Positions 1-61,598 of a stretch of DNA of 64,000 nucleotides are shown one piece after another; the stretch's first letter is position 1; each line of letters opens with the position of its first letter. The position numbers and the translations under genes were made by a program. The notes beneath the pieces were generated by a model, which saw only the letters and a program-made list of their open reading frames with translations, was not told the origin of the DNA and ran no database searches. The stretch comes from Candidatus Saccharimonadota bacterium. GTDB lineage: Bacteria > Patescibacteriota > Saccharimonadia > Saccharimonadales > Saccharimonadaceae. The stretch covers positions 1-64,000 of the forward strand of contig DAIDKE010000001.1 in assembly GCA_027450165.1 (NCBI GenBank), read 5' to 3'.

Positions 1-2
1 CC

Positions 3-53
3 GAGCGCGACGGCATCGACTTCGATCAACCACCTACACGACCACTTGGGTAG
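3..53 (+). CDS. Possible 3' end of a cut-off gene
   Basis: An open frame from the window edge ends in TAG at 51-53 and reads ERDGIDFDQPPTRPLG. The G+C-rich composition matches the next genes. Another frame stays open to a TGA at 101-103 that overlaps the next start codon, so I cannot say which, if either, is real. Confidence 0.3.
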   Translation, partial: ERDGIDFDQPPTRPLG

Positions 54-99
54 CCAGAACTTTAGGTAGCGACGTCAGGCGGAAAGGAGGGATTTCACC

Positions 100-720
100 A
101 TGACAGCAACCAAGAACCAACCACGCGGCGCCCGTCAGTTCGCTGACGACATCAACCAGCTGCGCCATCTGCGCCGACTCGGACGGCGCCCCAACTTGCC
201 TGCCGCTCGTCGCCTGGCGGTCGCCCAGATTAGGCAGATCCGGCGCCGATGCGCCGCCGCAGGCCTAACCATCGATGAGTACGTCGGGCTGCAGCCGTCA
301 ATTCAGATCGTGCACGCCGCGCACCTGCCGGTGCCCGCACTCCTGGTACCCGGCAACGGTCCCGATGAGTGGGCGATCCACGTGCGCTCGACCAGCCCCG
401 ACGGGGAGCAGCGCTGCCAAATCGTCCGCGAGTTCAAGTACTGCCTTGACGCCCCACTCGTCCACCGGCTCTACAGCCCCCACGACAAGCTCAGCCACCA
501 GCAGGCAGCCGTGGCCGCTGACCGGTTCGCCGACGAGCTGCTCATGCCGGCCCGCCAGCTGCGCCAAGCCGCCCGCCAGGGCGACGGCACGCCGATCGAC
601 ATCGCGATCCGCTTCAACGTCACGCCTCAGCGCGCCGAGCAGCGCCTCATCGAACTCGGCCTGGCCCACCAGTCCGAACCCGCTGGCCACCCGGAGGGAG
701 GGCTACGCCATGGCCGATAA
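100..720 (+). CDS. ImmA/IrrE-like protein with degenerate zinc motif
   Basis: This 206-residue protein resembles the ImmA/IrrE family, metallopeptidases that in mobile elements cleave an immunity repressor. The family layout is visible: a helical N-terminus, the motif block at residues 110-114, then FADELLMP at 143-150 and a predicted helix-turn-helix around 165-185. In place of the expected HExxH the protein has REFKY, so both zinc-binding histidines are replaced and peptidase activity is doubtful. It may act as a DNA-binding or anti-repressor remnant. A strong ribosome site (GGAAAGGAGG, 81-90) supports the start. The stop overlaps the excisionase start, and the composition is far richer in G+C than the backbone after 2300. 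Confidence 0.7.
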   Translation: MTATKNQPRGARQFADDINQLRHLRRLGRRPNLPAARRLAVAQIRQIRRRCAAAGLTIDEYVGLQPSIQIVHAAHLPVPALLVPGNGPDEWAIHVRSTSPDGEQRCQIVREFKYCLDAPLVHRLYSPHDKLSHQQAAVAADRFADELLMPARQLRQAARQGDGTPIDIAIRFNVTPQRAEQRLIELGLAHQSEPAGHPEGGLRHGR

Positions 721-919
721 CCAACCGCTGGTCTACACCGTCCGGGAAGCTGCGGCCCGCCTCAAGGTCAGCCCCTGGACCATCAACCGACTGATCCAGC
801 TCAAGGAACTGGGCAGCATCCAGCTCGGCGCTCGGCGCCTCATCCCCTATGCCGACCTCGACGCTTTCATCGCTCGTCTGCGCAACGAACAAGACCCCCT
901 GGAGGCTCACCGTGGCTAG
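710..919 (+). CDS. Excisionase-type HTH protein
   Basis: A 69-residue protein of the helix-turn-helix 17 (Xis/MerR-like) family, with the pattern YTVREAAARLKVSPWTI near the N-terminus followed by a wing and RLIPYADLDAFI. Such proteins bend DNA at attachment sites and steer a tyrosine integrase towards excision. The ATG at 710 lies inside the last codons of the upstream gene, and its stop overlaps the integrase GTG by 8 bases, so the three genes look translationally coupled. Ribosome site GGAGGG at about 693-698. Confidence 0.8.
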   Translation: MADNQPLVYTVREAAARLKVSPWTINRLIQLKELGSIQLGARRLIPYADLDAFIARLRNEQDPLEAHRG

Positions 920-2294
920 GCGCAGCAACGGCGAGGGCACGATCTACCGGCGTGCCGACGGCCGCTACGAGGCAGCAGCCCTGGTCCATGTCGCTGGCGG
1001 GCAAAGACGACGCATCCGCGCCTACGCTTCCACGCGCGCCGACGCTCAGCGTCTCCTCCTGGAACGTCTCGACCGTGAGCGGCGCGGGATACCGGCGCCC
1101 GTCGAGCAGCCAAGCCTGGGCCATTACCTCGACCACTGGCTCGAGGACGTTGTGGCCAAGACCACCCGCCCGCTGACTCTAAAGTCCTACGAGGCGATCA
1201 TCCGCCTGTACATCAAGCCGCTGCTGGGCAAGAAAACGCTGACGCGACTCAGCGTCCAAGACGTCCAGCAGGCCATCGTCAGCCTGCAGAACGCCGGGCA
1301 TTCGGCTCGCACCATCCAGAAGTTCCGCGCCAACCTTCGGGCGGCCCTGCACAGCGCCATGCGCGAGGAACTCGTCTTCCGCAACGTCGCCTCGCTCGCC
1401 CAGATACCGAGGTGGGAGCGCAAGGAGATCAAGCCTTGGAGCCTTGAGGAAGCCGCCAAGTTCCTCGACGCCACGCGCCAGCATCGGCTTCATGTCGCCT
1501 TCCTGCTGCTCGTCGTCTACGGCATGCGTGAGGGTGAAGTCCTCGGCCTGCGCTGGAGCGACATCGACTTTGCAGCCAACACCCTGGTCGTGCGCCAGCA
1601 GATCCAGCGCCTCGACGGCAAACTGCGCGCCGTGCCCGTCAAGACCAGCGCTGGGCGGCGCACCCTGCCACTGGTGCCACGTGTTCGCACCGCGCTGCTG
1701 GATCTGGCAGCCCAGCGCGGCATCGACCTGCACACCATCACGCCATCCGGCGTCCAGAGTGAGTTCTCCACCGAGAACCTGGTTGTCGTCAGCACGGCCG
1801 GCGGCCCGATCGAGGCTCAGAACTTCCTGCGCACGTTCCGACGAGCCTGCCGCGACGCCGGACTGCGCGACATCGTCATCCACCACCTGCGTCACACCGC
1901 CGCCACGATGCTCAAGACCCTGGGCGTGCCCGCCCGCGACGCCCAGCTGATCCTGGGCCACGCCAACGTCGCCACCACCCAGCAGATCTACCAGCACGGA
2001 GACGTCGAAGAGCAGCGCAAGGCCGTCCTCGCGGTCCAGGACGCGCTGTCCCAGGCGCCACGCGAAGGCTCGACGATGAGCCTCACTGTGTCGCTACCTG
2101 CACCGCTGGGCACCCGTTGCCGTCAAACATTGCCGTCAAACGATTGCCAGACCATCAAAGGCACCGAAACGCAAGAACCCCCGTTGCGTGAAACAACGGG
2201 GGTCAGAGGGCTCGAATCATTTGGTGGCGCCACCTGGATTCGAACCAGGGACACAAGGCTCTTCAGGCCTCTGCTCTACCGGGCTGAGCTATAG
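912..2294 (+). CDS. Tyrosine site-specific integrase
   Basis: Phage/ICE-type tyrosine recombinase of about 460 residues. Order: an N-terminal arm-binding region (SNGEGTIYRRADGRYEA), a SAM-like core-binding domain at about 70-170, then the catalytic domain with Arg in YGMREGEVLGLRW (about 206), HHLRHTA (about 324-330), LGHANV (about 350) and the nucleophile Tyr in QQIYQH (about 360). I chose GTG 912 rather than an upstream ATG because GGAGG sits at 901-905 and the overlap with the excisionase is typical. The frame continues past the catalytic domain and ends inside the tRNA-Phe gene on the other strand, as integrases of tRNA-inserted elements often do. Probably of actinobacterial origin by composition (inference). 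Confidence 0.9.
   Translation: MARRSNGEGTIYRRADGRYEAAALVHVAGGQRRRIRAYASTRADAQRLLLERLDRERRGIPAPVEQPSLGHYLDHWLEDVVAKTTRPLTLKSYEAIIRLYIKPLLGKKTLTRLSVQDVQQAIVSLQNAGHSARTIQKFRANLRAALHSAMREELVFRNVASLAQIPRWERKEIKPWSLEEAAKFLDATRQHRLHVAFLLLVVYGMREGEVLGLRWSDIDFAANTLVVRQQIQRLDGKLRAVPVKTSAGRRTLPLVPRVRTALLDLAAQRGIDLHTITPSGVQSEFSTENLVVVSTAGGPIEAQNFLRTFRRACRDAGLRDIVIHHLRHTAATMLKTLGVPARDAQLILGHANVATTQQIYQHGDVEEQRKAVLAVQDALSQAPREGSTMSLTVSLPAPLGTRCRQTLPSNDCQTIKGTETQEPPLRETTGVRGLESFGGATWIRTRDTRLFRPLLYRAEL
2117..2148 (+). repeat. Tandem 12-bp repeats near the integrase end
   Basis: TTGCCGTCAAAC occurs at 2117-2128 and 2130-2141, one helical turn plus 2-3 bases apart, followed by a partial copy TTGCC at 2144-2148. 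Between an integrase and its tRNA target, such iterated sites are usually integrase arm-type or excisionase binding sites. That role is inferred from position. Confidence 0.6.
2177..2203. terminator. Hairpin between integrase and tRNA-Phe
   Basis: A perfect 10-bp stem, ACCCCCGTTG/CAACGGGGGT, with a 7-base loop. On the minus strand it is followed by TTCTTGCGTTT, a weak T-rich tail, so it could end tRNA-Phe transcription. On the plus strand it lies near the end of the integrase frame. It may belong to the element or to the host side. Confidence 0.55.
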
Positions 2295-2298
2295 CGCC
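2222..2298 (-). tRNA. tRNA-Phe (GAA)
   Basis: Full cloverleaf on the minus strand: a 7-bp acceptor (GGCGCTA with TGGCGCC-side pairing), D-arm GCTC/GAGC, anticodon stem GAGGC/GCCTT with loop CTGAAGA giving anticodon GAA, T-arm CCTGG/CCAGG around TTCGAAT, and an encoded CCA end. Its 3' end (2222) faces the integrase, the usual arrangement when an element inserts at the tRNA 3' end and restores it. Confidence 0.95.
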
Positions 2299-2336
2299 AC
2301 GCAAGCGACTCGGCGTCGAGCCGCTTGAACTTCATT

Positions 2337-2365
2337 ATTTTACAGTAGTCGGGCTGTTTTCACAA
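2337..2365 (-). promoter_or_regulatory. Promoter of tRNA-Phe
   Basis: On the minus strand TTGTGA (2360-2365) is followed after exactly 17 bases by TAAAAT (2337-2342), about 40 bases before the tRNA. A small CGGCTCG/CGAG hairpin lies in the leader. Confidence 0.65.
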
Positions 2366-2370
2366 GCCGT

Positions 2371-3117
2371 TTACTTTTTGGTCAGGCTGGAAACAGCATT
2401 CGACAAATCTGTTGGCAAAACAACGACTGTTTTTTGGCTTGGTTCAACAGCGATTTTTTCAAGCGTTTGCAGAGTACGAATATTGATACCACCAGGAACT
2501 TTCGCCAAGGTTCCAGCAGCTTCCGACACGGCAACAGCGGCTGCTTTTTCACCTTCAGCCACAATAATCACAGCTCGGCGCTCACGCTCAGCCTCGGCTT
2601 GCTTGGCCATGGCCCGCTTCATGTCTTGCGGCAGTTCAATGTTCTGAATCTTAACCGTCTCAACATCGATACCCCATTTTTCAGTCTGAATATCAACGAT
2701 TTTCTTGATCTGGGCACTAACTTCGTCGCGCTTGCTCAGCAGTGAATCAAGATCAACATTACCTGTCACATCACGCAAAGCTGCCTGAGCAAACTGGCTA
2801 CTGGCGTAGACAAAGTTGGCTACCTCAAGCACAGCTTTTTGGGCATCAACAACGCGAAAATAAACCACCGCGTCGACGTTAACCGTCACGTTATCTTTAG
2901 TAATTACTTCTTGTTTAGGAATGTCGATGGTACTGGTGCGCTGATCAACTTTAACAATCCGCTGAAAAATCGGAAAAACTACCCTTAAGCCCGGCTCACG
3001 TAAACCAGTAAAACGACCAAGCGTCAGTACAACGCCGCGCTCGTATTGATTAATAACCTTTAAACCGCCCAATATGTAGATCACCACAATGATGATTAGC
3101 CAAATTAGAACATCCAT
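2371..3117 (-). CDS. SPFH/band 7 (slipin-like) membrane protein
   Basis: A 248-residue stomatin/prohibitin-type protein. One hydrophobic N-terminal segment (about residues 3-18) is followed by the band 7 domain with the typical NQYERGVVLTLGRF and PGLRVVFPIFQRIVKVDQRT, and then an alanine/glutamate-rich helix (KQAEAERERRAVIIVAEGEKAAA, about 165-190). Family members oligomerise in the cytoplasmic membrane and organise microdomains or membrane proteases; no NfeD protease partner is adjacent. A good ribosome site (AAGGAGG) lies 5 bases before the ATG. It follows ddl on the same strand 33 bases away and may be co-transcribed with it. Confidence 0.9.
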   Translation of the reverse strand: MDVLIWLIIIVVIYILGGLKVINQYERGVVLTLGRFTGLREPGLRVVFPIFQRIVKVDQRTSTIDIPKQEVITKDNVTVNVDAVVYFRVVDAQKAVLEVANFVYASSQFAQAALRDVTGNVDLDSLLSKRDEVSAQIKKIVDIQTEKWGIDVETVKIQNIELPQDMKRAMAKQAEAERERRAVIIVAEGEKAAAVAVSEAAGTLAKVPGGINIRTLQTLEKIAVEPSQKTVVVLPTDLSNAVSSLTKK

Positions 3118-3150
3118 GAGAACCTCCTTATTTCTGACACTATTGTAGCA

Positions 3151-4152
3151 CTAAGCCAGTTCAATTAAGCGTGAAATCAGGTCGCTGTAACTAATGCCCG
3201 CCGCCTGCCAAGATTTTGGATACATACTAATGTTCGTAAAGCCCGGCATGGTGTTGACCTCGCCGAAGTAAACCTTGCCCTCTGGCGTCAAAAAGAAGTC
3301 AATCCGCGCCAGACCCTTGCCTTCGACGGCCTTGAAAACGGTGCGCGTTAGGGCTTTAATCTCTTCGGCCTTATCTTTTGGCAAATCGGCCGGCGTCATA
3401 ACTTTCGACTGGCTGTCCGGATCATACTTTGACTCATAAGAATAAAATTCACGGTCCGGCACCACTTCACCCGGCTCGCTGACTGCAAAATCGGTCACAT
3501 TACCAAGCACCGAAACTTCGATTTCGCGGCCAACAATCGCTTGCTCAATCAGAACTTTATCGTCGAGTTTCGCGGCCTCTATGAGCGCTGTCTGGAAATC
3601 AATTTCATTATCAACTTTGCTCACACCGACCGAAGAACCGAGTCGTGACGGCTTTACGAAAACAGTTGAGCCTAGTTTTTCGGTTACTTGCTGCCAGGCT
3701 GGCGTTTCTTCACCGCGGCGATATCCAATATAAGGCACGATGTTGACGCCGGCATGCTCGGCCACGCGCTTGGTTAATTCTTTATCAATGCTTACTACCG
3801 ACGCCTCAACGCCCGAGCCAACCATTGGAATATGCAGCAACTCCGCCAAACCCTGGACCGTGCCGTCTTCACCGTGTTCACCGTGCAAAATCGGCAAAAT
3901 CACGTCGACTTTTAGGTCCGAATCGTCGCTTAACTTGAACCAGCCGCCGCCAAGCACCGGCAATAATTCGTTCTGGCTGCCAGTCAAATCCTCAAAATCG
4001 TCAACCAGCCACCAGTGGCCAACCTTGTCGATATAGCCCAGACTCACGTCATATTCAGTTTTATCAATCGCACCAAATACATTTTTAGCAGAGGCAATTG
4101 AAACCTCGTGCTCTGATGATTCGCCACCAAATAACAATAAAACGCTTTTCAT
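3151..4152 (-). CDS. ddl: D-alanine--D-alanine ligase
   Basis: ATP-grasp ligase of 333 residues that joins two D-alanines for the peptidoglycan stem peptide. The N-terminal FGGESSEHEVSIASA matches the family signature. GSGVEASVVSIDKELTKR, VKPSRLGSSVGVSKV (ATP loop) and RIDFFLTPEGKVYFGEVNTMPGFT (Mg/ATP and substrate residues) occur in the expected order. Length is close to the usual 300-360. A TATAAT lies 10 bases before the ATG on the minus strand, and the gene is divergent from rarA with only 47 bases between starts. It implies the cell builds its own D-Ala-D-Ala peptidoglycan. Confidence 0.95.
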   Translation of the reverse strand: MKSVLLLFGGESSEHEVSIASAKNVFGAIDKTEYDVSLGYIDKVGHWWLVDDFEDLTGSQNELLPVLGGGWFKLSDDSDLKVDVILPILHGEHGEDGTVQGLAELLHIPMVGSGVEASVVSIDKELTKRVAEHAGVNIVPYIGYRRGEETPAWQQVTEKLGSTVFVKPSRLGSSVGVSKVDNEIDFQTALIEAAKLDDKVLIEQAIVGREIEVSVLGNVTDFAVSEPGEVVPDREFYSYESKYDPDSQSKVMTPADLPKDKAEEIKALTRTVFKAVEGKGLARIDFFLTPEGKVYFGEVNTMPGFTNISMYPKSWQAAGISYSDLISRLIELA

Positions 4153-57443: not shown

Positions 57444-57518
57444 TGGTGATCTCACCGGGAATCGAACCCGAATTGCCAGGATGAAAACCTGGTGTCCTAA
57501 CCTTTAGACGATGAGACC
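57444..57518 (-). tRNA. tRNA-Glu (UUC)
   Basis: Acceptor GGTCTCA/TGAGATC, anticodon stem CCAGG/CCTGG with TTTTCAT giving TTC, T-arm CGGG/CCCG around TTCGATT, and encoded CCA. Its first five bases also form the arm of a long inverted repeat upstream. Confidence 0.95.
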
Positions 57519-57601
57519 AAATTGCTAGTGAAAAGCAACAAAAATGCTCGCATTTTTACGCTTTTCCTCGCAATTTGGTCTTCCTATGGCCAAGGGCCAT
57601 A
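57514..57601. repeat. Nested perfect palindrome upstream of tRNA-Glu
   Basis: Three perfect stems are stacked: AGACCAAATTGC/GCAATTTGGTCT (57514-57525 with 57570-57581), GAAAAGC/GCTTTTC, and AAAAATGC/GCATTTTT. The outer arm takes in bases 1-5 of tRNA-Glu. A separate TATGGCC/GGCCATA hairpin follows at 57585-57601. Confidence 0.85.
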
Positions 57602-57648
57602 TGATACCGGAGTAAAAGCGCTTGCTTTCCGACTCGCGCTATTTTACC
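57602..57648. repeat. Inverted repeat in the tRNA-Glu upstream region
   Basis: GTAAAAGCGC and GCGCTATTTTAC (about 57612-57648) can pair around a 14-base loop. No gene is seen here. A tRNA-Glu promoter should lie in 57520-57650, but I find none with good spacing. Confidence 0.5.
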
Positions 57649-57673
57649 AAAAAAAATCCCCTTTGGCTAGGGG
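57649..57673 (-). terminator. T-tailed terminator of the island's left arm
   Basis: CCCCT/AGGGG stem (57658-57662 with 57669-57673). On the minus strand it is followed by ATTTTTTTT. Confidence 0.8.
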
Positions 57674-57692
57674 GTGACTGGCGTTTTACCTT

Positions 57693-57744
57693 CCCGTCGG
57701 GGAGCGCCGATAGCCTGTGGCGGCTCCGGCGCTCCCCGTACGGG
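57693..57744 (-). repeat. Long G+C-rich hairpin after the cassette gene
   Basis: CGGGGAGCGCCG/CGGCGCTCCCCG (57698-57709 with 57727-57738), a perfect 12-bp stem extended by CCCGT/ACGGG after a one-base bulge, to 17 pairs. It lies between the stop at 57753 and the T-tailed terminator. Confidence 0.8.
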
Positions 57745-57752
57745 TTTTGGGG

Positions 57753-58310
57753 CTATGCTGCCCCGATGGACATCCCCGGTGCCAGACCGAGCTGACGAGC
57801 GCGACGCCTCCCCTGACGGCTCGGCCGGCCATGCCAGTTGCGCTGGTCGAAAAACACCCGGTCGGCCATGCGATGCGAGCGGTCGTAGATCACCCGCAGT
57901 TCGCACGAGTAGAGCCAGTCGTCGTCGAGAGGCCAGATCAGCCCCTCCTCGAGCAGCTCGCCAATCGCCAACCGCACCATCTCGGCACGAAGCCTAGGCA
58001 GGATCATGTCCCACTCGCAGCGCTTCAGCTTGATCCGGTGCTTCGGCAGCTGCTTGTGGTCGTAGACACCATTCAGGTTGACGTTCTCGTGCACGTACTT
58101 CACGATCGACTCGACGTCACTGCCGATACCGCGAACCACGTTGTCGTGCTCATCGGTCTTCACACCGGTCTTCCGGCAGTACTGAACCACCAGGAGTTCG
58201 GCGATTCGCAGGAGAACGCCTGCGACCACGTTTTCCAACCAGCGGCGGTTGGCGTCGTCGTCTTCATATGGCAGGTAGTCTGCCACGCGGACATTGGTGT
58301 AGTTAACCAA
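57753..58310 (-). CDS. Unknown protein, G+C-rich island gene A
   Basis: A protein of about 185 residues that I do not recognise. It is soluble, with helical segments (NRRWLENVVAGVLLRIAELLVVQYCRKTG, PRLRAEMVRLAIGELLEEGLIWPLDDDWLYS) and a basic C-terminus (GRPSRQGRRRARQLG). The start is uncertain. TTG 58310 has AGAAAGG seven bases upstream, while the longer frame from TTG 58340 has no ribosome site. Codons are strongly G/C-ending. Its own promoter lies at 58380-58408, and a long hairpin plus terminator follow. Confidence 0.6.
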   Translation of the reverse strand: MVNYTNVRVADYLPYEDDDANRRWLENVVAGVLLRIAELLVVQYCRKTGVKTDEHDNVVRGIGSDVESIVKYVHENVNLNGVYDHKQLPKHRIKLKRCEWDMILPRLRAEMVRLAIGELLEEGLIWPLDDDWLYSCELRVIYDRSHRMADRVFFDQRNWHGRPSRQGRRRARQLGLAPGMSIGAA

Positions 58311-58379
58311 GACGAGCCTTTCTCGGGATGTCCAGAGCAACGGTCACGTCAGAAACGCTGGTAGATGCTCATGCTGTTA

Positions 58380-58408
58380 TCTATACTCTTGAAATTAAAA
58401 TTGGTCAA
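58380..58408 (-). promoter_or_regulatory. Promoter of island gene A
   Basis: On the minus strand TTGACC (58403-58408), 17 bases, TATAGA (58380-58385). It begins two bases after the T-run of the preceding gene's terminator. Confidence 0.75.
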
Positions 58409-58410
58409 TT

Positions 58411-58433
58411 AAAAAACACTCCACTTGGAGTGT
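58411..58433 (-). terminator. T-tailed terminator of island gene B
   Basis: ACACTCC/GGAGTGT with a 4-base loop (58416-58433). On the minus strand it is followed by TTTTT. Confidence 0.8.
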
Positions 58434-58437
58434 GTAG

Positions 58438-58480
58438 CCGGTGGGGCGCGCTGACAGGTCATTGTCAGGCGCCCCACCGG
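58438..58480 (-). repeat. Long G+C-rich hairpin after island gene B
   Basis: CCGGTGGGGCGC/GCGCCCCACCGG (58438-58449 with 58469-58480), perfect, with inner CTGACA/TGTCAG. Same order (gene, long hairpin, short terminator) as the cassettes at 57753 and 14757. Confidence 0.85.
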
Positions 58481-58522
58481 AGTCTTGGGGACTACCGTTC
58501 TAGGTAAGAACAGCTAGTCGGG

Positions 58523-59011
58523 TCAGACGGTCGCGGTCGCCATGGCGACGCTCGACTTCGTTCTCCGGATCGCCGGCTCGACAGAAGCGATCAGCTGCCC
58601 GGTCGAGTCCTCGATCTTGAAGCCACGCGCCCACAGAACCAACCGCAAGTGACGCAGTCGGCAGCGCGGGTCCTCGATGTTCCACTGCTTCGGCATCGCG
58701 ATCTTCGGTTCGATGATCTCCTTGATGATGGCATCCAGGTCGACACCGCGCACGAGCAGGTAGCCGATCAGCTGAATGACGTCGCCGTAGGCAACCCCGT
58801 CAGCGCCGCTGCACAAACCCAACATCGCCAGCTGGCCGGCCGTGTCGGCCGGGTAACCTTGGTCGAGGAACTCGTCGAACTTGGCCTCGTGGGCCGCGTC
58901 GACGACGATCGTGTCGGCCTTGGCGCAGTCCGGCGTGTAACTCACCGTGTCCATGGCAGTAACTCGAACTGTGTAGGCCAACGGTGACAACGACTCGTTC
59001 ACATCAGTCAT
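58523..59011 (-). CDS. Unknown protein, G+C-rich island gene B
   Basis: A 162-residue acidic, soluble protein without a recognised family. It has two cysteines, a central helical part (AGQLAMLGLCSGADGVAYGDVIQLIGYLLVRGVDLDAIIKEII) and a basic segment RCRLRHLRLVLWARGFKIED. ATG 59011 is preceded by GGGAGA nine bases upstream; the longer frame to 59092 runs through the promoter. Divergent from gene C, with a near-consensus promoter. Strong G/C third-position bias. Confidence 0.6.
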   Translation of the reverse strand: MTDVNESLSPLAYTVRVTAMDTVSYTPDCAKADTIVVDAAHEAKFDEFLDQGYPADTAGQLAMLGLCSGADGVAYGDVIQLIGYLLVRGVDLDAIIKEIIEPKIAMPKQWNIEDPRCRLRHLRLVLWARGFKIEDSTGQLIASVEPAIRRTKSSVAMATATV

Positions 59012-59083
59012 ACCAACAGGTCTCCCTTGCGACAGTGCACGTCTAGCTTCGGAGAACACCCCCGAGACGTACATAACCGAGCA

Positions 59084-59112
59084 ATATAGCACCGGCTCCG
59101 CACCCTGTCAAA
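59084..59112 (-). promoter_or_regulatory. Consensus promoter of island gene B
   Basis: On the minus strand TTGACA (59107-59112), exactly 17 bases, TATATT (59084-59089). Confidence 0.85.
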
Positions 59113-59164
59113 TAGCGTCATATGTGGAGCATTTAGTCGGAATTTAACACTATATATAGCGTAT

Positions 59165-59180
59165 TGTGACCTAGATCACA
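59165..59180. promoter_or_regulatory. CRP/GlxR-like operator
   Basis: TGTGACCTAGATCACA. It fits the actinobacterial GlxR pattern TGTGANNTANNTCACA and the core of the E. coli CRP site TGTGA-N6-TCACA. It lies between the two divergent promoters, roughly 84 and 95 bases upstream of their predicted start sites. Confidence 0.7.
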
Positions 59181-59221
59181 TTATAAAGCTTGTGCTTTAC
59201 TTATTTTTATTATATTGTATA

Positions 59222-59250
59222 TTGACTTTTTCGACCTTTTATGATACATT
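59222..59250 (+). promoter_or_regulatory. Promoter of island gene C
   Basis: TTGACT (59222-59227), 17 bases, TACATT (59245-59250). The leader to the GTG at 59403 is about 145 bases. Confidence 0.65.
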
Positions 59251-59402
59251 TAGACCATCAGTTATTTGAGGTGGAGACCCCAGGTAGCGGAGGTCGTTAA
59301 CAAGTCAGATCATTACAGTGCATGTCCTATTGCGTTTTTACGCACAGGATAGATACTGTTGTCAGCTCAAGTCAGCTCAAGTCAGAGACCCAAGGAGACA
59401 CC

Positions 59403-59825
59403 GTGGCTACCACCATTACGATCGACGTCAGGACCGCCCTCGAGGCAGCCCTCACCAAGGCCGCCGTTAGTGGTCAGGCCTGGAGGGACGCCTACGCGGC
59501 GTTCAGGAAGTCGGCCAAGACCAAGAACATCGGGGCGTCGCTCAACGACGCCTTGAAGGTCGCGGCCCCCAACAACGGCCAGCGTCAACGGGATGGCCGC
59601 GCGGCCTTCTACAGGGCGCTCGGCCAGGGGATGTTGATCGAGAGCCCAGCGGTTGCAGCGCAGCCTCCGGTTCCCGCAAATTCCCCTGCTTCGCCTGCCC
59701 CCCGACGGGGCCGCTCGTCCATCTTCGAGTTCGTCGGTGCAGAGACCGGCAAGACGGTCACGCAGCACCTCCAGGGTGCACGTCAGGTCGTCCGCCGGTC
59801 CACCAAGCGCGCCGACAAGAAGTAG
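59403..59825 (+). CDS. Unknown basic protein, G+C-rich island gene C
   Basis: A 140-residue protein with no recognised family. N-terminal helical domain (VRTALEAALTKAAVSGQAWRDAYAAFRKSAKTKN...RAAFYRALGQGML), a Pro/Ala linker (about 85-105) and a basic C-terminus (VVRRSTKRADKK). GTG 59403 has CAAGGAGA six bases upstream; an earlier in-frame start at 59322 has none. It precedes gene D by 64 bases on the same strand, probably in one transcript. Confidence 0.6.
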   Translation: MATTITIDVRTALEAALTKAAVSGQAWRDAYAAFRKSAKTKNIGASLNDALKVAAPNNGQRQRDGRAAFYRALGQGMLIESPAVAAQPPVPANSPASPAPRRGRSSIFEFVGAETGKTVTQHLQGARQVVRRSTKRADKK

Positions 59826-59889
59826 TTCCAAGCGCCGAGCGTCAAAAGCTCGGTCCCACCCAACCATCAACGGAAAGGGGTGATGCGCG

Positions 59890-61350
59890 ATGACCATCGC
59901 GCTCATCATCGGGGCCGTGCTGGTTCTCGCCGGCGCCGCCCTTTGGGCTCTGGGAGCACCCAGTGGCCTGTTCTGGATCCCGATGGTGGCCCTCGTGGTC
60001 ATCATCGGGATGCACGCAACGCACCACAACCACGTCCCGTGGTTGGGCTGGGTCGCTTCGGCGATCCTGCTCATCGTCGCGCTGCTAATTGCGTGGTTCG
60101 TCAACGAGACCCCCAAAAACCACAAGCTCTGGGCATGGCTGCCCGGCGCGGTGGCTGCGGGACTCGTAATCGGCCTGGCCCTCACGTCGTCCGCCACCAC
60201 CGCTTCGGCGGCAAATGGCGACGGCAACGGGCAGTCCGGCGCGACGAACGTCGCGTTCGACCCAGCCGTGGACCTGATCCCCGGTGCGGCCAAGTGCACC
60301 ACCGACACCTACAACACGGTTTCGGCGATGCCGGCCAAGCCGGGTGACAACAACGCTCGGCAGTTCCCAACGGCAGTTAGCTCGCCCTTCAAGGCGACGA
60401 CGGCCAGCGGCGTCACGACGGAAACCATGACTGAAGTCTGCACGAACCCGACGTGGTTCGAGCAGGCTCTCCAGTTCATGGAGACCCCAGAGTGGCGCGC
60501 CATTCCCGGCGCCACGTCCAACGACGGTTGGCTCAAGACGATCCGTAGCGACATCGCGTCGCACGGCCTCGAGGGCTTCATCGTTAAGGACGAGGCGTCA
60601 GGGGCGCTGACCACGACGGACACGTACCGCAAGTACGCGTCGTGGATCAACGTGGTGCTCATGCGCTTCAGCGAGACGGGCGAGCAGTCGCCCACCTCGA
60701 AGAAGAACTGGGAACTGAGTGTGGCCCAGGACCCGACCAAGATTCCGGTGACGCAGCTTGCTGCCGACCAGGAATCGAAGCCGGCCTGGACGTACGACGC
60801 CGTCGACAAGAACGGTAAGTGCCTCTTCGTCTGGGGTGTCAACGCCCTGGACAAGCGGCTCGAGCTGTTCGAGTGCGGTGGTACAACGCCGTACTCGTCG
60901 ACGCCGCCGACCACACCCGGCACGCCGACACACCCGTCGACGCCGTCGACGACGCCACCCACAACACCGACCTGCGAGTCGGTCTACGGTGCGGGGTGGA
61001 CGGGGCACTACCCCGTCTGCAAGGACCCTGCATCGCAAGACCCGCAGCCACAGGGCCACAACAAGCCCGGTGGTGGCGGGGTTGCTCCGCCCGTGACGAC
61101 GGGACCGAGTGCGCCGGCCGCTGGCAACCCGCCGGCGACCTACGTGCCGCCGGCTCCGCCGGCAGCGACGCACACGACCCCGCCGCAGGTCAACACGGCA
61201 ACACAGCCTTCATCGGGCTCGGTACCGACCGTTGACCCTGCCACACAGCCGCCGAACAACGGCGTCGTTGGGAACAGTGGTAACCCCACCAACCCCGACC
61301 CGGTTCCAAGTAGCGGTGGCAGCTGCAACTCGGTCTTCCAGTCCTGCTGA
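59890..61350 (+). CDS. Large surface protein with Pro/Thr-rich tail, island gene D
   Basis: A 486-residue protein. Three or four membrane helices lie in the first 105 residues (MTIALIIGAVLVLAGAALWAL and following, the last ending SSATTASAANG). An outer globular domain follows (about 110-325; with TNPTWFEQALQFMETPEWRAIPGA and NVVLMRFSETGEQSP), and then a long Pro/Thr/Gly-rich tail (330-475) containing CESVYGAGWTGHYPVCKD and a terminal pair of cysteines. It looks like a wall-spanning or adhesive surface protein. I do not recognise a family. Ribosome site AAGGGG ten bases upstream; very G+C-rich codons. Confidence 0.65.
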   Translation: MTIALIIGAVLVLAGAALWALGAPSGLFWIPMVALVVIIGMHATHHNHVPWLGWVASAILLIVALLIAWFVNETPKNHKLWAWLPGAVAAGLVIGLALTSSATTASAANGDGNGQSGATNVAFDPAVDLIPGAAKCTTDTYNTVSAMPAKPGDNNARQFPTAVSSPFKATTASGVTTETMTEVCTNPTWFEQALQFMETPEWRAIPGATSNDGWLKTIRSDIASHGLEGFIVKDEASGALTTTDTYRKYASWINVVLMRFSETGEQSPTSKKNWELSVAQDPTKIPVTQLAADQESKPAWTYDAVDKNGKCLFVWGVNALDKRLELFECGGTTPYSSTPPTTPGTPTHPSTPSTTPPTTPTCESVYGAGWTGHYPVCKDPASQDPQPQGHNKPGGGGVAPPVTTGPSAPAAGNPPATYVPPAPPAATHTTPPQVNTATQPSSGSVPTVDPATQPPNNGVVGNSGNPTNPDPVPSSGGSCNSVFQSC

Positions 61351-61366
61351 GAGATCGCGCTGCACC

Positions 61367-61448
61367 GCGCAGGGTGGACGGCCCTTAAAAGCTGTCCACC
61401 CTGCGCACGCAATACAGATTTAATTCCCGTTTGAGCTTCGGCTCACGG
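61367..61448 (+). terminator. Double hairpin after island gene D
   Basis: GCGCAGGGTGGAC/GTCCACCCTGCGC (61367-61379 with 61394-61406) is followed by CCGT-GAGC-TTCG-GCTC-ACGG (61427-61448). Again a long G+C-rich hairpin comes first and a short one second; here the second has no T-run. Confidence 0.7.
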
Positions 61449-61598
61449 TAGAGTTCAATCTGCTGAGCTTTAAGGCTCGGACATGCACTAGTTGTAATGA
61501 TCTGATTTGTTACGTTTAACAAATAGGCTTAGGAATTTAAAAATAATTTGTTAATTTAATTTGATTTACTCTGCGAGATAAATCAAGAAGGAGATGCT
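61449..61598. other. A+T-rich region before the sortase-anchored protein gene
   Basis: No gene seen. It contains the palindrome TTTGTTacgtttAACAAA around 61507-61524 and several A+T-rich boxes, without a promoter I can place confidently. The G+C-rich island ends here. Confidence 0.45.

Follow-up and report, generated by a model that had tools for sequence, protein, structure and literature searches.

The window analysed here covers the first 64 kb of contig C1 (370,694 bp) in a 794-kb genome of 7 contigs that is 99.5% complete. Its owner is a Saccharibacterium, because ACTGGGCGTAAAGAGTTGC, which we take to be the site of primer TM7-580F, is present in the 16S fragment that lies at the end of C1. 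The sequence of a primer matching this site is printed in PMC6073563 and PMC7651992. Bases 1-2300 of the window contain ~66% G+C versus ~50% for the remainder, and it is this short stretch, a candidate end of an integrative genomic island beside a tRNA-Phe gene, that concerns us. Its features, and those of a G+C-rich stretch at the end of a second contig (C3) of the same genome, are collected in Table 1.

Table 1. Features of the candidate island at the start of C1 (window positions) and at the end of C3 (positions in locus L008, in which C3:123174-123220 is 175-221); att, attachment site.
Position	Strand	Feature	Basis or remark
3..53	+	C-terminal end of gene cut by contig start	ERDGIDFDQPPTRPLG, then stop; read from sequence
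100..720	+	M78/IrrE-ImmA-like protein	PF06114 E=1.2e-7
710..919	+	Xis, excisionase-type HTH protein	TIGR01764 47.7 bits (cut-off 28.8); PF12728
912..2294	+	Int, tyrosine integrase, 460 aa when integrated	PF00589 E=2.9e-26; PF14659
2117..2142	+	tandem arm-type repeats TTGCCGTCAAAC, 2 copies, period 13	read from sequence
2177..2203	.	inverted repeat ACCCCCGTTG/CAACGGGGGT, between arms and core, downstream of tRNA 3′ end	read from sequence
2220..2266	+	att core, 47 bp	direct copy at C3:123174-123220, 46/47
2222..2298	-	tRNA-Phe(GAA), integration target	ARAGORN
L008 483-2732	+	large serine recombinase	first gene from left att
L008 2809-4161	-	pseudopilin with NHL repeats	
L008 4238-5671	-	GajB	PADLOC E=2.3e-133, 444 bits
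L008 5664-7400	-	GajA	PADLOC E=1.8e-162, 540 bits
L008 7418-10522	-	HsdR	
L008 10525-11757	-	HsdS	
L008 11754-12308	-	gene of unassigned function	
L008 12305-13879	-	HsdM	
L008 14679-15713	-	second pseudopilin	
ends L008 16266	+	CopG-like gene	
L008 16430-16528		partial gene cut by C3 end	32 codons; MTKGIYLPADDSAPLEVREFADFMDYQSVVGG...; MTKGIYLPADD...

A first-pass annotation of this DNA described three overlapping G+C-rich genes next to tRNA-Phe, and this description holds: in the M78, Xis and Int genes (66-67% G+C), each start overlaps the preceding stop. It also had them end exactly at the 3′ end of the tRNA; in fact the Int frame passes through that point and reaches its stop within the tRNA gene, at 2292-2294. 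By motif reading, the catalytic residues of Int are complete (R206, K244, HxxR 324-327, H350, Y360). The label "ImmA/IrrE-like" fits the first of the three genes as a family match and fails for the metalloprotease motif. Most relatives have HE(F/Y/L)KH or HEFGH; alignment with them shows that the zinc motif HExxH, expected of an ImmA (M78) anti-repressor protease, reads REFKY in the window protein, and the motif is gone in locus L060 as well. ImmA-like proteolysis is therefore unlikely, and relief of repression must proceed differently or have been lost; to judge from its sequence, the window protein is probably not an active protease. The gene cut by the contig start probably encodes the element's XRE (Cro/C1) repressor, although the match is short. 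An XRE repressor (HTH_3) ending in ...YGIQFNRDTDGPRTGEDE occupies the equivalent position in Tsukamurella (L039), and a repressor-like open reading frame (...AEREGVNLHGPAPGEDE...) does so in another Saccharibacteria genome (L043).

The Int gene adjoins the 3′ end of the tRNA, as is characteristic of tRNA-targeted integrative elements, and the att core spans the tRNA from the anticodon to just beyond its 3′ end. The anatomy indicates that tRNA-Phe is kept intact and functional because the element supplies its 3′ part. The tandem 12-bp repeat reported at first pass is present, with copies of TGCCGTCAA at 2118 and 2131. A pair matching the TTGCCGTCAAAC repeats sits past the core at the other end, at C3 ~123308-123329, and paired TG(C/T)(C/T)GTCA motifs flank the core on both sides in the unrecombined site (attP) of L038, L039 and L073 too.

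That other end came to light as the second attachment site for which the first-pass annotation had advised a search. When the window's first 2.6 kb was searched against its own genome, one additional match was obtained (C3:123173-123220). The 47-bp core is present only twice in the genome, the C1 and C3 copies being one mismatch apart and oriented as expected from integration into a tRNA; a direct repeat of the 3′ part of a tRNA at the far end is a hallmark of tRNA-targeted integrative elements and genomic islands. Reads failing to span 2200-2300, or an unrelated organism's chromosome at the left end, had been named as grounds for rejecting integration; to the extent that assemblies permit, both are answered. 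The sequence left of the C3 core is ordinary chromosome of the same organism, with a dedA-like gene and ~50% G+C, while to its right G+C is 59-68% up to the contig end at 139,527, the step falling exactly at the core. From the core copies, their orientation and the step in G+C, it follows that the element comprises C3:123174-139527 (the final 16.3 kb of that contig), a gap, and C1:1-2266, or at least 18.6 kb. Synteny with L039, in which 0.7 kb separates the CopG end from the M78 start, suggests a gap of ~1 kb. Three tiny contigs (500-597 bp) are masked as N and not usable for bridging it.

A sister species of the same genus, G692, provides a view of the site with little in it. One of its contigs (C50, 4.1 kb) contains the dedA flank, 1.5 kb of G+C-rich DNA, tRNA-Phe (79 bp identical to ours), Band7 and Ddl, an order which makes neighbours of the left flank on C3 and the right flank on C1, as is expected for a tRNA-targeted island. 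The intervening 1.5 kb is a remnant of the element. It has a pseudopilin matching the element's own at 84% (L008:14487-14816) and 75% (L008:15298-15700) DNA identity, and holds the right arm at 82.4% identity (tRNA excluded), with neither integrase nor left att. No wholly empty site was found, the remnant site in G692 being the only one. Divergence of the arm is similar to that of the chromosome (79.8% identity between the window genome and G692), which means either that an element has been at the site since before the species split or that the site was used twice; by this measure, the right end of the present element seems to date back to the split. A further G692 contig (C44; L104) has another tRNA-Phe and a second, different Band7 (61%) in a bin already having both; it is probably a contaminant from another Saccharibacterium, and was set aside.

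Considering both ends together, we hold it highly probable that bases 1-2266 form the integrase-bearing end of an integrative genomic island which was inserted by its own tyrosine integrase in the tRNA-Phe gene of a Saccharibacterium, and the rest of which lies at the end of C3. The sequence evidence supports the view that an actinobacterial-type element sits in a Saccharibacteria chromosome. In this the first-pass annotation is borne out by the second att, the organism's own chromosome beyond it, the adjacent flanks in G692 and the 16S fragment. In addition, tRNA-Phe next to ddl is a recurrent integration site in Saccharibacteria. In the one-contig genome G116, an entire 5.4-kb element, bounded by att and encoding a related Int, lies there, and the locus is held by related, separately branching integrases in two Saccharibacteria genera (L044 17394-18482; window 2222-4152).

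Judging from its genes, the element would equip its carrier with a defence island, consisting of Gabija and type I restriction-modification, plus pseudopilins. GajA (ATPase plus TOPRIM, with an AAEG...DND TOPRIM-like motif) adjoins GajB (UvrD-like helicase), and the PADLOC models are matched almost full length. These components, and HsdM/S/R, are those of other Gabija and type I islands; what differs is their location on a tRNA-integrated island of a streamlined Candidate Phyla Radiation genome. The best plasmid match of GajA (56%) is on a Corynebacterium glutamicum plasmid. The pseudopilins are G+C-rich, with variable C-terminal domains, and accompany the element in G692 also (C50 281-1571); a tandem array of their relatives is found elsewhere in that genome (L105 1587-5684). 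It is possible that they are host-contact adhesins. For the final 32 codons on C3, there was no plasmid match and no Pfam match; we presume a likeness to DUF3846, which no library match confirmed and on which no argument here is based. In the 18.6 kb recovered, the gap aside, no gene for a relaxase, Rep, FtsK/Tra or a phage structural protein was found. To spread from cell to cell, the element would thus depend on helper conjugation, on natural transformation or on genes that the gap conceals; as read from its gene content, it is probably not self-transmissible.

The closest parallels in organization are found in the Mycobacteriales. In L039 (Tsukamurella asaccharolytica HKU71) and L038 (an Actinomycetes metagenome-assembled genome, MAG), the order is ATPase, Replic_Relax, CopG, XRE or ArdA, M78 (L039), Xis, Int, large serine recombinase (SerRec) and tRNA-Leu, with TrwB_AAD_bind and Replic_Relax domains matched in L039. 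Int is followed by a serine recombinase also in Nocardia caishijiensis L036, L057, L058, L059, L061 and L063. Between these two genes lies an unrecombined attP, with tRNA-Lys or tRNA-Met 3′ halves and arm repeats (L039, L038), and tRNA-Phe cores are located within the Int tails of L073, L066 and L075. Opening a circle of the L039/L038 type at attP yields the window's layout, with the serine recombinase at one end and CopG...M78-Xis-Int at the other. We define the family here by the gene order CopG-XRE-M78-Xis-Int-SerRec with attP between Int and SerRec. The island has this order after circular permutation, the CopG-M78 link crossing the gap, and its CopG is 65% identical to that upstream of Xis-Int in L038. 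Hence the Mycobacteriales elements (L039, L038, L036) share with it these genes, an attP in the 3′ tail of Int, arm repeats and a tRNA target. They differ in that their Int attP is still intact and their serine-recombinase end lies at tRNA-Leu or tRNA-Pro, whereas in the window the Int attP (tRNA-Phe) has been used. L039 also carries Replic_Relax and a TrwB/TraG-like ATPase, in place of which the window element has defence genes and pseudopilins; upstream of its CopG neither Replic_Relax nor a coupling ATPase was found, and a pseudopilin and HsdM stand there. The serine recombinase frame of L038 (7615-9690) and L039 (7509-9230) enters tRNA-Leu(CAA) at an apparent chromosomal junction, like the window Int into tRNA-Phe, and it may be that each of the family's two recombinases contains its att within its own 3′ end.

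Related elements exist in further Saccharibacteria. In G263 (L043), M78, Xis and Int together with a repressor-like gene lie beside tRNA-Lys at 60-70% G+C, and Replic_Relax is retained. Both this element and that of G116 (L044) resemble the window in having a related Int by a tRNA, at the same locus in the case of G116; they differ in their separate branches in the Int tree and in their cargo, and the small G116 element is ameliorated (44-52% G+C).

In named genomes, the nearest integrases are those of Nocardia caishijiensis (51%), Streptomyces (43%), the Actinomycetes MAG (42%) and Tsukamurella (42%). Matches at E<1e-60, with identity up to 51%, occur in 18 of 298 genomes of Tsukamurella's order, and integrase matches in only 6 of 296 genomes sampled across the actinobacterial phylum. 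At E<1e-10, 19 of 392 genomes of the window's class (its own included) have a match, the best other at 49%. Phages were considered as a source and rejected, the best integrase identity being only ~30-31% (mycobacteriophage Giles and kin). An integrase tree, recommended at first pass, was built with IQ-TREE from 49 integrases. Saccharibacteria and Mycobacteriales are intermixed in it, and the window Int falls within a clade containing both (support 84/96), which adjoins a clade of 7 Saccharibacteria rows. There are at least two well-supported cross-phylum nestings, as Saccharibacteria L018 groups with Mycobacteriales L075 (100/99) and Saccharibacteria L017 with Mycobacteriales L063 (100/100), and well-supported branches force at least 3 label changes between the two groups. 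These results suggest that islands of this kind pass between the parasites and the phylum to which their hosts belong. The first-pass proposal of exchange with the host phylum is thus upheld by the nearest architecture and integrases, which are in Mycobacteriales, and by the mixed tree; the support does not extend to the direction and date of transfer.

When the ends are joined in silico, the Int frame crosses attP and reaches 539 codons before its TGA, which overlaps the serine recombinase ATG. In each of the 15 sequences that were read in attP form, the frame is open beyond the core, with a median of 137 codons after the last catalytic motif versus 17-18 in the other frames (n = 15, Wilcoxon p=4e-4, relatedness not corrected), and an Int frame open through attP can be counted as a family trait. 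It follows that integration truncates Int and splits the operon of the predicted circle. In the scheme that we envisage, Int of the island itself would have inserted it into tRNA-Phe, and a repressor would then silence the XRE-M78-Xis-Int operon. Relief would let Int and Xis act and recombine the two cores, releasing the circle and restoring the tRNA. In the circle, the 539-codon Int and the serine recombinase would form one coupled operon; upon integration, the Int tail would be replaced by a tail encoded in the host tRNA, and the serine recombinase parted from the operon. We infer from the reading frames that this truncation and uncoupling may act as a switch. In mycobacteriophage integration-dependent immunity, the gene altered is the repressor. 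There, too, attP lies inside a gene whose 3′ end is changed by recombination; here, by contrast, the integrase itself is altered and a second recombinase uncoupled. The term integration-dependent immunity is used in PMC9635641 and PMC10865867, among others. Going further, and with more reserve than conviction, we raise the possibility of a two-recombinase element family with attP in the Int frame, in which integration is a molecular latch (Int truncated, serine recombinase uncoupled) and which has repeatedly moved defence islands between Mycobacteriales and Saccharibacteria epibionts via tRNA 3′ halves conserved across phyla.

Other explanations merit consideration. An assembly or binning chimera, in which actinobacterial contigs were joined to Saccharibacteria contigs via the conserved tRNA-Phe, would be in line with the draft state of the assembly, the start of C1 and end of C3 inside the element, and the sharp difference in base composition. 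Yet there are two separate junctions, on contigs of 371 kb and 140 kb, both exactly at the core and in the orientation that integration predicts. Moreover, the core is of Saccharibacteria type (the C1 copy is identical to that of G692, whereas Mycobacteriales tRNA-Phe cores are 85% identical to it), the right arm and pseudopilin occur at the same site in the independently assembled G692, and G116 has its complete element within one contig. The chimera is nearly refuted already, and we give it hardly any weight. That the element is a cryptic prophage and not a plasmid-like integrative element appears just as improbable: the distant relatives of its integrase in Giles and kin (30%) are outweighed by the much closer integrases of elements with Replic_Relax and a coupling-type ATPase, and there are no capsid, terminase, portal or tail genes in the recovered element.

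More serious is the possibility that the island is an old, immobile relic, fixed in place, with a degenerate M78, no transfer module and a cargo beneficial to the host. The lost zinc motif, the lack of relaxase, Rep and Tra in the recovered sequence and the mere remnant in G692 all fit this idea, but Int (with its full catalytic set), Xis, the arms and both att cores are intact, and we consider it unlikely, if the strongest of the alternatives. It is also conceivable, albeit rather improbable, that the family is native to Saccharibacteria and that the Mycobacteriales copies derive from them. Saccharibacteria rows are scattered in the Int tree, including the 7-row clade beside the mixed one; the pseudopilins are Saccharibacteria-like; and at least one end may predate the G692 split. 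On the other hand, the G+C content of 60-68% suits Actinobacteria and not a ~50% host, the fullest organization, with transfer genes, is in Mycobacteriales, and the nesting of L017 and L018 among Mycobacteriales rows is fully supported. Several observations weigh against insertion of an actinobacterial-type island as set out above. The end of C3 shows no overlap with the start of C1, and the contigs are not joined. Excision is predicted from anatomy and in-silico joining. The window Int is only ~50% identical to its nearest relatives and is placed in a polytomy within the mixed clade. HsdM shares 81% identity with a protein of an Arthrobacter plasmid and 75-78% with proteins of several other Saccharibacteria, and so cannot by itself identify the donor. 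The Saccharibacteria-type pseudopilins, finally, make the element a mosaic.

Elements of a known class, the actinobacterial integrative and conjugative elements (AICEs) of the pSAM2 type (definition from PMC3218068), likewise have Int/Xis at a tRNA 3′ end, an att-...-xis-int-att layout and a serine or tyrosine integrase, and the island has such an integrase with Xis. AICEs differ in having RepSA, RepAM or Prim-Pol and an FtsK/SpoIIIE-type Tra, none of which is among the island's recovered genes (the gap remains). Since Rep and Tra are absent from the recovered sequence, the island is not an AICE by that definition. Horizontal transfer into Patescibacteria is documented (PMC12455944), as are phages that spacers of Saccharibacteria and Actinobacteria alike target (PMC10746230). 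A literature search of incomplete coverage yielded no description of the CopG-XRE-M78-Xis-Int-SerRec family, nor of any such elements from Saccharibacteria. Members of the Saccharibacteria live on Actinobacteria, and the routes by which parasites so streamlined gain new genes are largely an open question. The present case offers a bounded vehicle whose mechanism can be read: both of its ends are known, the site is seen occupied and almost empty, and the phylum of the presumed hosts has sister elements. Gene flow between epibiont and host phylum can thereby be tested directly. Similarly, an Int gene that spans its own attP, and whose coupling to a second recombinase would exist solely in the circular form, offers a control switch that can be tested.

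The first-pass annotation also saw the island as a possible source of the other G+C-rich cassettes in the window. No support was found for this, as the core is present only twice in the genome and proteins encoded in the 57.6-61.4 kb block are without a convincing Pfam match; nor is there a tRNA-Phe core copy in that block (57601-61450). The block itself, the second G+C-rich stretch of the window (up to 65%), starts beside a tRNA-Glu gene (57444-57518, minus strand), on its 5′ side.

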